From a virus: DNA of 34,791 nt. The notes beneath the pieces are model-generated. The model ran no database searches. It was given only the letters and a program-made list of their open reading frames with translations, and had not been told where the DNA came from. The translations under genes and the position numbers were made by a program. The stretch is from positions 1-34,791 of IMG/VR virus record IMGVR_UViG_3300034072_000829. One strand, given 5' to 3'. This document shows positions 5,937 to 17,050 of the stretch, piece after piece; within the stretch, counting starts at the first letter, position 1; each line of letters opens with the position of its first letter.

Positions 5937-6601
5937 GCTTCTTCTCCCGCGGTGATGAGGGTTGCGAGGAAGATGGCCTGATCCTGGCCGCTCATCGACG
6001 AGCCGTAGACCCTCTTAATGTGCGCTGCTTTCATGCGCGCGTCTTCCAGCGTCTTGATCGGATGCGCGATGATTGCTTCGTTCAGATCGTTTTCCAGACC
6101 GGAAAGGCGATCCTGCTCTTTGCCGAGATCATGGAACCCGCTTGATGTGGCCCATGCCTGATAGCGCGCTTCGCGGGCGTCGAACATCGCGAGATAACGC
6201 TCACGATCAGCTTCGATCCTGGCAAAGTGAGGCGCGAAGTTCTGCGCGTTTCCGCAGAAATCTGCGTTCATCTTGAAAGCCCGCGCCTCACAGTCGAAGA
6301 GGTGATTCACAGCATCGCGCGACATTACGAACTGTTGCTTCAGCATGTGCCAGCGGTAACTGTGTGTCAGTTCGGCTTTCTCGATCTTCGCCACAGGCGG
6401 GCGCTCGGGACTTTCCCAAAGAGCCTCCGACAAACCGTCGATGCGATTGGCTTCCGCCGCGACTTCGTTATAAGCGGCGATCAACTCCACCAGCGCCGAC
6501 GGCTCGGTCTGGGCGGTTGTTACGCCCTCGCAGGCCGTGGCGGCTACAGGGAGAGCGGCAGCAGCTACGCCGCCGAGAAAGGTGCGACGGGTCGTTTTCA
6601 T
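5933..6601 (-). CDS. Exported protein with a twin-arginine signal, possibly a lipoprotein
   Basis: The 222-residue protein begins MKTTRRTFLGGVAAAALPVA, a clear twin-arginine signal (TRRTFLG) with a hydrophobic core, followed by ATAC that could serve as a lipobox with Cys24. The mature part is helical and charged, with no catalytic motif I recognise. The signal predicts export in folded form across the inner membrane. An exported protein within the repressor-controlled early operon is unusual; such genes can alter the host envelope, for instance by excluding other phages. It is coupled to both neighbours by four-base overlaps. An upstream in-frame ATG near 6650 would bury the signal and was rejected. 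Confidence 0.72.
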   Translation of the reverse strand: MKTTRRTFLGGVAAAALPVAATACEGVTTAQTEPSALVELIAAYNEVAAEANRIDGLSEALWESPERPPVAKIEKAELTHSYRWHMLKQQFVMSRDAVNHLFDCEARAFKMNADFCGNAQNFAPHFARIEADRERYLAMFDAREARYQAWATSSGFHDLGKEQDRLSGLENDLNEAIIAHPIKTLEDARMKAAHIKRVYGSSMSGQDQAIFLATLITAGEEA

Positions 6602-8633: not shown

Positions 8634-9505
8634 CACTTCGCTCCCATAGCCTTGAGAGCGTTGATCACGTTGTCAGCAATCGACTTCGCGTTGAGCGCGA
8701 CCGCCGAGACAGCAAAGCCGTCAGAGCCGCCGATGCCATCGCCAACCTTGTCCAGCGCGTGCAGCAGGTCGTGGATTTCTTCGACTTGCTCAAGGAGTTC
8801 GGCCAGCTTCGGAATGTTCTCTGGGTGAACATTTATCCCGTGGGGAAGATCGATCCGCAGATGCTCCGAGAGCTTCAAGAGGTTGATGCCAGACGGCATA
8901 TTCTCGTTGCGCTCCCACTGGCTGACAGCCTGAACTGTCACTCCCATGAAATCAGCAAGCTCAGCTTGGCCCATATTGAGGGACTTGCGGGCCTGCCTGA
9001 TCTTATTGCCAATCGTCGTTGCTTTCGCTTCGGACACGTCGGCGCATTCGGTCTGTTGGTCAGGCGTTTTCAAACCCAAAAGCAGCCACGCGACACTTGA
9101 CCCGAAGGTATCAGCGTAAATGCGCGCTGATTGTTCGTTGTATTCACGCGTGCCATTTTCATGGTGAATGTAGGTTGATACCGAAACGCCGGCAGCACGA
9201 GCTGCTTCAGATGCGGACGCGAATTCCGCAGCGTTGCGAAGATCGAAAAGCCTCTGTGCTTTCTGCGAGCGCACAAAGCCGGCGTCGGGTTCCCCCACCT
9301 CATCGCTCTCACCAATGAGGTAGGAGACAGAGCAGCCTAAGACTTCAGCGATAGCTGCCAATCCGTCTACGGAAGGTGACTTCGATTTTCCAACAAGGAT
9401 GTCACGGATGTACTGACGACCAAAACCCGTGGCGATTGATGCTCTGCTGACGTTTGTGTTGCAGGCTCCAAGGCGTTCCTGAATGCGTTGAATGAGGACT
9501 GACAA
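8633..9505 (-). CDS. Transcription regulator with three XRE-like HTH modules
   Basis: From a TTG start with GGAG eight bases upstream, the product has 290 residues. Three stretches read as XRE-type domains: about 5-65 (SRASIATGFGRQYIRDILVG through LGCSVSYLIGES), 83-144 (ASEAARAAGVSVSTYIHHENG through FGSSVAWLLLG), and 165-222 (GNKIRQARKSLNMGQAELADFMGVTVQAVSQWE). The tail is helical. An ATG at 9544 is in frame, but it lies inside the operator and would have no ribosome site, so the TTG start is favoured. It is the first gene after the leftward promoter, so it probably acts in the lytic switch or early-gene control. A single chain with three such modules is unusual. Confidence 0.78.
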   Translation of the reverse strand: MSVLIQRIQERLGACNTNVSRASIATGFGRQYIRDILVGKSKSPSVDGLAAIAEVLGCSVSYLIGESDEVGEPDAGFVRSQKAQRLFDLRNAAEFASASEAARAAGVSVSTYIHHENGTREYNEQSARIYADTFGSSVAWLLLGLKTPDQQTECADVSEAKATTIGNKIRQARKSLNMGQAELADFMGVTVQAVSQWERNENMPSGINLLKLSEHLRIDLPHGINVHPENIPKLAELLEQVEEIHDLLHALDKVGDGIGGSDGFAVSAVALNAKSIADNVINALKAMGAK

Positions 9506-15067: not shown

Positions 15068-15885
15068 AGATTTCGGTGAACAACGAATACATGGACGTCG
15101 CCGGCCGAAAGGTGTTGATTGTGGCGATCGAGAAGAACCGGGCCGGGACGAAGCTGTTCCTCGGGTACCAGATCGACCGAGACAAGAACCGGATCGGCCC
15201 GGAGCTGTGGTTCAAGTCCGATGGGCGGTCCTTCCTCGGCGGCATGGAAGACAATCTTTGTCGCGAGGCTGATAGCGGCATGGCCTTGAGCGACATGCAG
15301 GCGGTCATCCTTGAGCGGATCATCGAAGCGATTGACACAGACATGGCGATGCCTGGTGCCACCGGCCCGCGGATGTATGGAAGCGCGATGCCGGACTACA
15401 TCCACGATGCAGCGGAACTTAACACGCTGGAGTTCGTGGACGAGCATCTGACCGGCGGCATGCATACCCGGCACAGAAACGCGGCAATCGATGCCGTGAC
15501 CGAACGTCGGGCGAAATGCAGCAAGGTGCGCATAGGGCGCATGGAGGAAGCGCTGGCTTGGGTGCCTATGTTCGTCTGGGACCACGAAATGCGCGTCGTT
15601 CTGTTCGATTATGCTAGGGTCAAAGCCAACGGATGGGACTGGTCGAGGTTCATTTCAGCCCGAAACCGTCGCAACCCGCAAAAAAAGGCTTGGGTTAAAC
15701 GAACGCTGTATCGCTGGATTGAGAAATCACTTCAACAAATTGAATGCGGCATCATCAACAAATCAATCTTGTTGATGGATACGGCGGGTTTACAGGTGGC
15801 ACACGGGGAGGCAAAACACGAGGGCAAATCAATAAGATCGGGTTTGCGTTCGTGGACAGCCTCCGAAGATAAGCCCGCTGCATAG
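15064..15885 (+). CDS. Hypothetical protein, last gene of the early operon
   Basis: This 273-residue protein has an N-terminal beta-like half (ISVNNEYMDVAGRKVLIVAI) and a C-terminal half with RIGRMEEALAWVPMFVWDHE, VVLFDYARVKANGWDWSRF and a basic helix (RNPQKKAWVKRTLYRWIEKS). The latter resembles the DUF6362 pattern seen in phages, which may bind DNA; this match is from memory and tentative. The last 45 residues are low in structure and may be an extension. It is followed by the long gene-poor region, so it probably ends the early transcript. Confidence 0.68.
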   Translation: MKISVNNEYMDVAGRKVLIVAIEKNRAGTKLFLGYQIDRDKNRIGPELWFKSDGRSFLGGMEDNLCREADSGMALSDMQAVILERIIEAIDTDMAMPGATGPRMYGSAMPDYIHDAAELNTLEFVDEHLTGGMHTRHRNAAIDAVTERRAKCSKVRIGRMEEALAWVPMFVWDHEMRVVLFDYARVKANGWDWSRFISARNRRNPQKKAWVKRTLYRWIEKSLQQIECGIINKSILLMDTAGLQVAHGEAKHEGKSIRSGLRSWTASEDKPAA

Positions 15886-16047
15886 CGGATGTAGAGCCGG
15901 GGTCCACAAGTCAGGTTTGAGCGGTCGCGCTTGGGTGCGATCTGCTCCTTAGGAGAGTCGCGCCCGGCGCCCTTCACGGGACTAAGCCGGGTTAAAGCCA
16001 CAGCCTGGGACACATGGACGCCCGGGGAAACAGCGGCAAAATTGGGG
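15886..16047 (+). other. Non-coding structured segment after the early operon
   Basis: No convincing rightward ORF is present. Two strong hairpins are seen. GAGC-GGTCGC at 15919-15928 pairs with GCGATC-T-GCTC at 15937-15947. CCCGGC at 15963-15968 pairs perfectly with GCCGGG at 15986-15991, enclosing CCC/GGG around TTCAC. They may terminate the early operon, be a processing signal, or be the start of the larger structured RNA that resumes at 16213. Confidence 0.5.
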
Positions 16048-16212
16048 TTATCCGGTCCACCCCAGCATACGGCAATGCTGTTCTCCTGCTTTGATGGCAG
16101 AGGCGTGATCCGGAAACTTGTTTTTGATCTGGTACCGCTTGCCTTTGTAGAAAATAACAAGAAGCCCTCCGGCTTCATCGTATGAGATGCTCATTCCTTG
16201 TTCGTATGCCAT
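16048..16212 (-). CDS. Small leftward ORF, 54 residues
   Basis: The ORF encodes MAYEQGMSISYDEAGGLLVI, then FYKGKRYQIKNKFPDHASA and IKAGEQHCRMLGWTG. The alternation of beta-like strands, basic turn, helix and a CRxLGW end resembles small phage proteins of 45-60 residues, and codon use is reasonable. GGAG lies ten bases before the start at 16212; a second ATG at 16194 is also in frame. It is opposite to the surrounding early and late genes and sits between two structured, non-coding blocks. Function unknown. It could instead be chance coding inside a large RNA gene. Confidence 0.5.
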   Translation of the reverse strand: MAYEQGMSISYDEAGGLLVIFYKGKRYQIKNKFPDHASAIKAGEQHCRMLGWTG

Positions 16213-16414
16213 TTGTCGATGTCTCCGAGGAATCAGAACAGAACATCAATAGCGTGGCAGATCGAGAGAATACGTCAAACGGATTCCCAAACACTCGGGA
16301 GCGCGTATGCGTGTGAGGCTTCGGCCTCCGCGGTGTCCATCCCGTGGGGGGACGCGACTGCCAAGAGTAGTGTTGTAGCCGCAAGGTGGCCTTCGGGCCT
16401 TGTCCTCACGGGAC

Positions 16415-16435
16415 CAATTCGCCCGATGGGCAACG
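16415..16435 (+). repeat. ATTCGCCC-loop-GGGCAACG hairpin repeat, copy 1
   Basis: The copy has GCCC at 16421-16424 and GGGC at 16428-16431 with loop GAT, flanked by CAATTC and AACG. Two further copies (16483-16505, 16647-16668) share the flanks and stem but have loop AACA. The conserved flanks outside the stem suggest a shared tertiary or protein contact. Confidence 0.65.
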
Positions 16436-16482
16436 ACAACAGAATCCCCGCCGCCTATCCTTGGAAGCGCACCGTTGGGGGT

Positions 16483-16505
16483 CATATTCGCCCAACAGGG
16501 CAACG
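16483..16505 (+). repeat. ATTCGCCC-loop-GGGCAACG hairpin repeat, copy 2
   Basis: GCCC at 16490-16493 and GGGC at 16498-16501 enclose AACA; ATTC precedes and AACG follows. It lies just before the likely pseudoknot at 16508-16543. Confidence 0.65.
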
Positions 16506-16507
16506 AA

Positions 16508-16543
16508 GCGTGGGTTCCAACACGCCCCTCAGACCATTGGAAC
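16508..16543 (+). other. Likely H-type pseudoknot in the structured RNA
   Basis: GCGTG (16508-16512) pairs with CACGC (16521-16525). The intervening loop contains GTTCCAA (16514-16520), which pairs perfectly with TTGGAAC (16537-16543) downstream of the first stem. Stem 1 of 5 bp and stem 2 of 7 bp interleave as in a classical H-type pseudoknot, with a one-base first loop and no gap between the stems on the shared strand. Such a nested arrangement is unlikely in unstructured DNA. Confidence 0.6.
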
Positions 16544-16646
16544 ATCTGGCCCGGCACTAACGCCTGATGAAGCGAAAGCAGAAACGGTAAACCCGTCGCG
16601 TGGAGTCTCCCCAGCCGGGGAATAACTGGAGACCTAGGAGGGGCAC

Positions 16647-16668
16647 CAATTCGCCCAACAGGGCAACG
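16647..16668 (+). repeat. ATTCGCCC-loop-GGGCAACG hairpin repeat, copy 3
   Basis: GCCC at 16653-16656 and GGGC at 16661-16664 enclose AACA, with CAATTC before and AACG after, as in copies 1 and 2. It follows the hairpin in which GTCT-CCCC (16605-16612) pairs with GGGG (16617-16620) and AGAC (16630-16633). Confidence 0.65.
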
Positions 16669-17050
16669 GAATGCGAGGCGGCGCTGAAAGCAGAAGCGCC
16701 TAAAAGCGTGCTAGGATCCGTATCAATACTTGTACCCGCCGCTGGGAGATTGAAGACCCGGGATGGTACGGATAGCCACGGTAGCGTGTGGCCCTCGCAG
16801 CAAATCAGGAAGGCGGGCATAGCTCGTGAAGGTTGGGGTTCGTGCCTGGCCGTTCCTTCCTGACCAATTCAAGGATCGTCAGTGATAGCCGAGAAGGCGA
16901 AGCGACGAGATCGGGACCGGGGATTGCGGTTTGCAGTCAACGCCGGATAGTTGAAACGATGATGAAAGGTTGGGACGCCAGCCTTCCCGATACATTCCAC
17001 CAGCCCCGCCCGTAACAAGGTGGGGCTGAATTACGTTTCAGGAGATGAGC

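Follow-up and report, generated by a model that had tools for sequence, protein, structure and literature searches.

What is encoded in a gap of approximately 1.16 kb (15886-17044) within an otherwise recognisable phage genome is the question raised by this locus. The window, the whole 34,791-nucleotide stretch of viral DNA analysed here, is a tailed-phage genome with terminase, portal, major head and tape measure genes on the plus strand, and the gap is bordered by a 273-amino-acid ORF that ends at 15885 and by the next ORF, which begins at 17045. A preliminary description of the sequence had assigned positions 16213-17040, between the early and late genes, to one plus-sense structured RNA of about 830 nt resembling the giant phage RNAs GOLLD and ROOL. 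That this block lacks convincing genes was borne out, as it lies inside the gap, and the RNA described below does sit between the DNA-metabolism genes and the terminase and head genes. It is a far smaller RNA than the one proposed, and it hosts a ribozyme.

The conserved RNA and its fold

Sequence comparison singled out one strongly conserved element, located at 16507-16645 on the plus strand. A blastn search of 50,697 phage records gave matches limited to about 16509-16647, in Arthrobacter phages, Mycobacterium phage Gaia and an Enterobacter phage, and in near relatives of the window the element forms a single 97-98% piece with otherwise different flanks. Homologues were collected by scanning IMG/VR and GTDB genomes for two short boxes and from named phages, plasmids and E. 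coli genomes. At least 93 distinct copies from the box scans and named records pass a pairing parser, which demanded at least 5/6 pairs in helix D and at least 4/6 in helix C. They are carried by phages, prophages and plasmids of very diverse hosts, including Actinobacteria, Proteobacteria (with E. coli prophages among them), Clostridia and Microcystis. When the window and its close relatives were left out of a covariance model (R2), cmsearch with that model still recovered the whole unit at 118.1 bits (E 4.4e-25), as the only copy in the window. Some 590 bacterial genomes from around two positive genomes gave no further match, as would be expected if phages carry the element. The E. coli prophage copy occurs in 15 of 5,426 genomes.

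The helices follow the order A B A' C [loop] D C' D' B', in which A crosses B and C crosses D, and the aligned homologues securely predict two interlocked pseudoknots with conserved single-stranded linkers between them. Across 46 class-1 members 96.0% of cells are paired, against 34-42% in slid controls, and both sides have changed at 27 of 36 pairs. The covariation score is 0.668 compared to 0.170 for shuffled and at most 0.110 for slid alignments, and 402 cells are changed on both sides compared to 117 after shuffling. Among the 93 listed homologues helix B occurs in 62 distinct versions, with 5.98 of 6 positions paired versus 3.01 when partners are swapped; the corresponding values for helix D are 5.99 and 4.19. 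The changes on both sides of the pairs favour an RNA over conserved reading frames, the alternative named in the preliminary description, and the pseudoknot suspected there is real. The structured RNA and its pseudoknot were recognised from the outset, whereas the second interlocked pseudoknot, the hammerhead, the hairpin spacers and the link to tRNAs were missed.

In the window, a conserved single-stranded GUGGG (16510-16514; nearly all homologues listed have CGUGGG or a similar sequence) precedes helix A, in which UUCCAA (16515-16520) pairs with UUGGAA (16537-16542), with both-side changes at 5/5 pairs and 99.6% pairing. Helix B, which interlocks with A, joins GCCCCUC (16524-16530) to GAGGGGC (16638-16644) and shows both-side changes at 6/7 pairs. 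A conserved box, CAUCUGG (16543-16549), follows helix A; its CATCT is found in 91/93 listed members and is partly a search pattern, hence partly ascertained. Helix C pairs CCCGGC (16550-16555) with GCCGGG (16614-16619), is 100% paired and has three both-side-changing pairs. Beyond the C-D loop lies a conserved GUGGA (16600-16604), which overlaps the 3' strand of hammerhead stem I and reads GTGGA in 51 and GCGGA in 42 of the 93 listed members, the motif being required by the parser. It leads into helix D, formed by GUCUCC (16605-16610) and GGAGAC (16628-16633), which interlocks with C, is 100% paired and has changed on both sides at 5/6 pairs. Between C' and D' is the conserved linker GAAUAACU (16620-16627), a search-pattern box that appears as GAATAACT in 81/93, GAATAAAT in 11/93 and AAATAACT in 1/93 listed members, and D' is joined to B' by a CUAG linker (16634-16637) in class 1 and by CAG in class 2 members.

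Because the search patterns used the CAUCUGGCCC and GGGGAAUAA boxes, the invariance of both is partly ascertained, and the fixed CCC/GGG of helix C and the GAAUAA box are likewise partly an ascertainment effect. The pattern of one box scan contained no letters of helices A, B or D or of the hammerhead, so the covariation in these parts was not ascertained by that pattern.

Six members are circularly permuted: those of Enterobacter phage locus L004, loci L054, L107 and L126, Pectobacterium phage locus L263 and Acinetobacter plasmid locus L267. In the permuted layout, which the E. coli prophage copies share, the hammerhead stands at the start, a hairpin closes the B'-A side and the RNA ends at C. 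The same fold with its ends placed elsewhere argues for a compact tertiary structure. The diverged permuted copy on Acinetobacter plasmids of approximately 100-159 kb (L267, L268) lies beside an IS3 transposase gene and a tatABC cluster.

The family is absent from Rfam 15 and no description of it was found in open-access papers (PMC); judged by these two sources the RNA family is new, and its hammerhead adds a member to a ribozyme class already known. The HDV-like theta ribozymes of gut phages (PMC10879173) are likewise small, pseudoknotted phage RNAs that lie beside tRNA genes and have a proposed processing role, but the helix order here is different, the self-cleaving part is a hammerhead and the RNA also occurs away from tRNAs. 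An HDV-like or theta fold (P1-P2-P3-P1'-P4-P2') was rejected, since A and B interlock as P1 and P2 would but a P3 between B and A' is absent and Rfam gives no match. By inspection, a group I or HDV-like core has a partly similar helix order, but P8 or P3 is absent.

The hammerhead in the C-D loop

In most members the C-D loop holds a hammerhead ribozyme, which occupies 16560-16601 on the plus strand of the window. Stem I (16560-16563/16598-16601) encloses the core CUGAUGA (16564-16570), stem II (16571-16580), GAAA (16581-16584), stem III (16584-16587/16593-16596) and C17 (16597), and the predicted cut is 16597^16598. All core letters (C3 U4 G5 A6 N7 G8 A9, G12 A13 A14, A15.1-U16.1 and H17) are present at 16564-16597, and the core can be read on the plus strand only, in agreement with the sense first proposed from loop types. 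The three stems around the core covary (helices 4-6 of the 46-member alignment).

Strict hammerhead rules are passed by 59 of the 93 listed members, 58 of which have CUGANGA and one a U3/A8 variant. C, A or U precedes the cut, as the strict parser required, and no G was seen there in near-strict members. Most other long inserts are hammerhead-like by eye; those of L032, L060 and L252 are not. Sixteen listed members have a linker of 4-18 nt in place of the hammerhead, which makes the ribozyme an optional insert. One of these RNAs (L239) is 92% identical to that of an Arthrobacter phage outside the ribozyme, which forms a single clean insertion in the latter; the hammerhead is accordingly a modular insert.

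The ribozyme shares with the hammerhead clan (CL00010; RF00163, RF00008) the core CUGANGA...GAAA...UH, three stems and phage or prophage settings. Hammerheads are known in phages (PMC3088659), and both the U10.1-U11.1 mismatch and the C3-G8 to U3-A8 change reported there occur here (the former in L102 and L039, the latter in Gaia L003). PaP3 and Bcep176, whose hammerheads were assayed in 2011, do not carry the RNA and are not family members. A difference is that the hammerheads described here are optional inserts, placed in a loop that belongs to a larger double pseudoknot, itself conserved; many have A.A at 10.1/11.1, and in the members scanned their Rfam scores fall below gathering. Hammerhead cores combined with pseudoknots, and permutation, are also features of the re-ordered (non-circularly permuted) type SGC, or HRIMA-1 (PMC10085705); there the re-ordering affects the hammerhead itself, whereas here the hammerhead is an ordinary one and circular permutation affects the host fold. 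A type-SGC assignment was rejected, as the block order is C-G-S, that of type I, and not S-G-C.

Genomic setting and proposed function

A tRNA gene lies within 1 kb at 25 of the 93 listed loci, on the same strand in 25/25; random positions in the same loci gave 41/261, a control inflated by the same tRNA clusters. Some units fit exactly between tRNA genes, with lengths of 98 nt (L050, flanked by tRNA-Gly and tRNA-Lys), 111 nt (L035) and 148 nt (L121), and from such members the minimal unit is set at 98 nt. In both L121 and mycobacteriophage phiGD24-3 the unit is located between tRNA-Ser and tRNA-Trp. Among the 93 listed loci, 7 of the 11 with tRNAs on both sides are hammerhead-less compared to 9/82 otherwise (Fisher p 0.0003, a post hoc comparison), a surplus that is weaker when any tRNA within 100 nt is counted (p 0.09). 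The seven loci are L035, L050, L095, L133, L134, L135 and L264. In an E. coli prophage (L266) the element, at 6001-6206, lies in the late leader between an antitermination gene and a holin gene; the same prophage contains an int-alpA RNA at 8735-8797 (RF02996, above the gathering score). A riboswitch for a fixed downstream gene was ruled out by the variable neighbours.

We consider it probable that 16507-16645 belongs to an undescribed family of phage RNAs that are co-transcribed with tRNA arrays or late operons, cut internally by the hammerhead and have a core that acts in trans. The structure is secure; its function, we infer, is that of a small RNA processed from tRNA or late transcripts of the phage. 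Its ends would be set by tRNA processing enzymes or by flanking hairpins. Where a hammerhead is present, stem I grows out of the C-D loop, and cleavage would occur inside that loop (in the window between C16597 and G16598) to leave a 2',3'-cyclic phosphate and a 5'-OH. Helices B and C would keep the two halves clamped in members of standard layout, while in the permuted layout the cut would trim the 5' end and leave the core intact. The core would most likely be a stable small RNA that works in trans while infection proceeds, since its unpaired nucleotides have been kept in hosts and settings unrelated to each other, a conservation for which a simple spacer would have no need. The small proportion of listed loci with a detected tRNA within 1 kb (25/93) counts against this explanation, and a cis role in transcript processing suits many of the contexts as well. 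More tentatively, and with a little under even confidence, the family may be a new class of phage RNA gene, in which a double-pseudoknot core with a conserved trans-acting or catalytic function matures in tRNA arrays or late leaders, and the hammerhead in most lineages co-transcriptionally makes a two-piece or, if permuted, 5'-trimmed RNA that the pseudoknots hold together.

The most durable competitor, though an unlikely one, is a purely cis-acting device without any trans role: the hammerhead would cut a long phage transcript and the core would tuck the new ends away, so that upstream and downstream messages are separated and stabilised, as with the late messages of the window and of E. coli prophages. 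The late-leader position in L266, between the antitermination gene and holin, and the location of the window element upstream of the terminase and head genes fit such a role, and a structured leader with a 5'-OH is expected to slow decay. The enrichment of hammerhead-less members between tRNAs could also be read in this way, as if tRNA enzymes had replaced the cut, but those members are exact tRNA-like genes between tRNAs, the downstream genes vary, and the conservation of unpaired nucleotides exceeds what a clamp needs.

The ribozyme of the window itself may cleave slowly, as its stem II is mismatched and short, starting with an A.A mismatch next to the core and continuing with two further pairs only. 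The pair adjoining the core is non-canonical in 31 of the 46 aligned members, and in the 59 strict members it is G-C in 22, A.A (the window's type) in 21 and U.U in 12; A.A or U.U beside the core is a family-wide feature of stem II. In the members scanned the Rfam gathering score for hammerheads is missed, with a best score of 28.7 bits against 34 in L004 and L006; sub-gathering matches to Hammerhead_1 and Hammerhead_3 were seen among them, and the window had none. Perreault et al. 2011 (PMC3088659) rejected hits mispaired next to the core unless activity was measurable, but described the U10.1-U11.1 mismatch as tolerated. The A.A at 10.1/11.1, the 2-bp stem II and the 16 members that live without a hammerhead would suit a vestigial passenger, dead or purely structural, beside a working core. 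This too is improbable, since the catalytic letters are kept in the 59 strict members while the stems drift, and the frequency of A.A and U.U marks a family trait and not decay.

The remainder of the gap

The RNA is flanked by spacer hairpins, one directly upstream (UUCGCCCAACAGGGCAACG, 16487-16505) and one directly downstream (16650-16668), with a third copy at 16418-16435, all on the plus strand; these are the three-copy hairpin motif seen earlier (starting at 16418, 16487 and 16650). A hairpin of this type, UUCGCCC-N-GGGCAACG (TTCGCCC-N-GGGCAACG in DNA), lies on both sides of the RNA in the window, L010, L019, L130 and L109, and looks like an RNA-array spacer or processing hairpin. UUCGCCC-N(3-4)-GGGCAACG recurs in L288, L289, L293, L298, L327, L336, L345, L354, L356 and L375, with and without the RNA and at some loci near tRNAs, in L375 directly 3' of tRNA-Cys.

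Downstream lies a separate RNA-like module (16669-16816, plus strand) with a closing helix, GCGAGG (16673-16678)/CCUCGC (16793-16798), which becomes GCAAG/CUUGC in L354. It is possibly a tRNA-like element not called by ARAGORN. In L373, L019, L130, L354, L356 and L289 the module (16648-16864) comes after the hairpin, then GCAGCAAAUC. L373, from another phage, matches 16648-16864 at 92% and has the module without the conserved hammerhead RNA. A terminator-like hairpin ahead of the next gene (17001-17028, plus strand) is conserved in L010, L019 and L130. No tRNA or tmRNA was found in the window by ARAGORN or Rfam. Upstream of the RNA in L130 (4480-4780) and L019 (1960-2290) are divergent tRNA-like sequences with CAU-type anticodon loops, which suggest that the gap is a degenerate tRNA array.

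The two UUCG hairpins and GNRA-type loops noted previously are present in the block. For the UUCG hairpin at 16313-16332, a search of viral contigs with 20 nt gave no match. The 828-nt block shows no excess folding stability over shuffles (z -0.48 on the plus and -0.72 on the minus strand). The conserved 139 nt is also shuffle-like (z -0.08), so that counts of perfect stems are not evidence at such GC content, and minimum free energy folding of block and element was dropped as evidence. Close relatives share only separate pieces, 16486-16691 (97-98%), 15963-16041 and about 16992-17043. The block is thus a mosaic, an array of small RNA-like modules that can occur separately, among them approximately 139 nt of strongly conserved RNA. 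Rfam 15 gave nothing for the window at gathering and, at E up to 5, only three irrelevant microRNA models; the models of GOLLD, ROOL, HEARO and OLE gave no match at either level, in line with the earlier failure to place the block in a family. GOLLD and ROOL are also phage-associated structured RNAs, but are far larger and belong to other families, and the analogy in size proved wrong, the conserved unit measuring approximately 95-150 nt, with poorly conserved sequence or other small modules accounting for the remainder of the block. One ornate RNA of approximately 830 nt is thus very improbable in spite of the gap size, the position ahead of the late genes and the tRNA neighbourhood in relatives, given the shuffle-like fold, the separable pieces and the lack of an Rfam match even at E 5. 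A site acting as DNA, for instance in recombination, packaging or replication, with inverted repeats that only look like RNA helices, might be suggested by mosaic spread among unrelated phages and by the tRNA-array position of some copies. It is hardly tenable, because the pairing is interlocked and its linkers are conserved, a hammerhead core is embedded, and nearby tRNAs are strictly on the same strand, all of which are features of RNA.

The locus adds a strongly supported RNA family found across phages of several bacterial phyla. It also exemplifies how one structured RNA can accommodate a self-cleaving ribozyme in a loop, as an insert that is optional, and the host fold occurs in nature in circularly permuted forms. 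Natural phage hammerheads gain a defined context, so that their role can be tested in tractable systems such as E. coli prophages, mycobacteriophage phiGD24-3 and Arthrobacter phages. Phage tRNA arrays are places in which to seek more small RNA genes.
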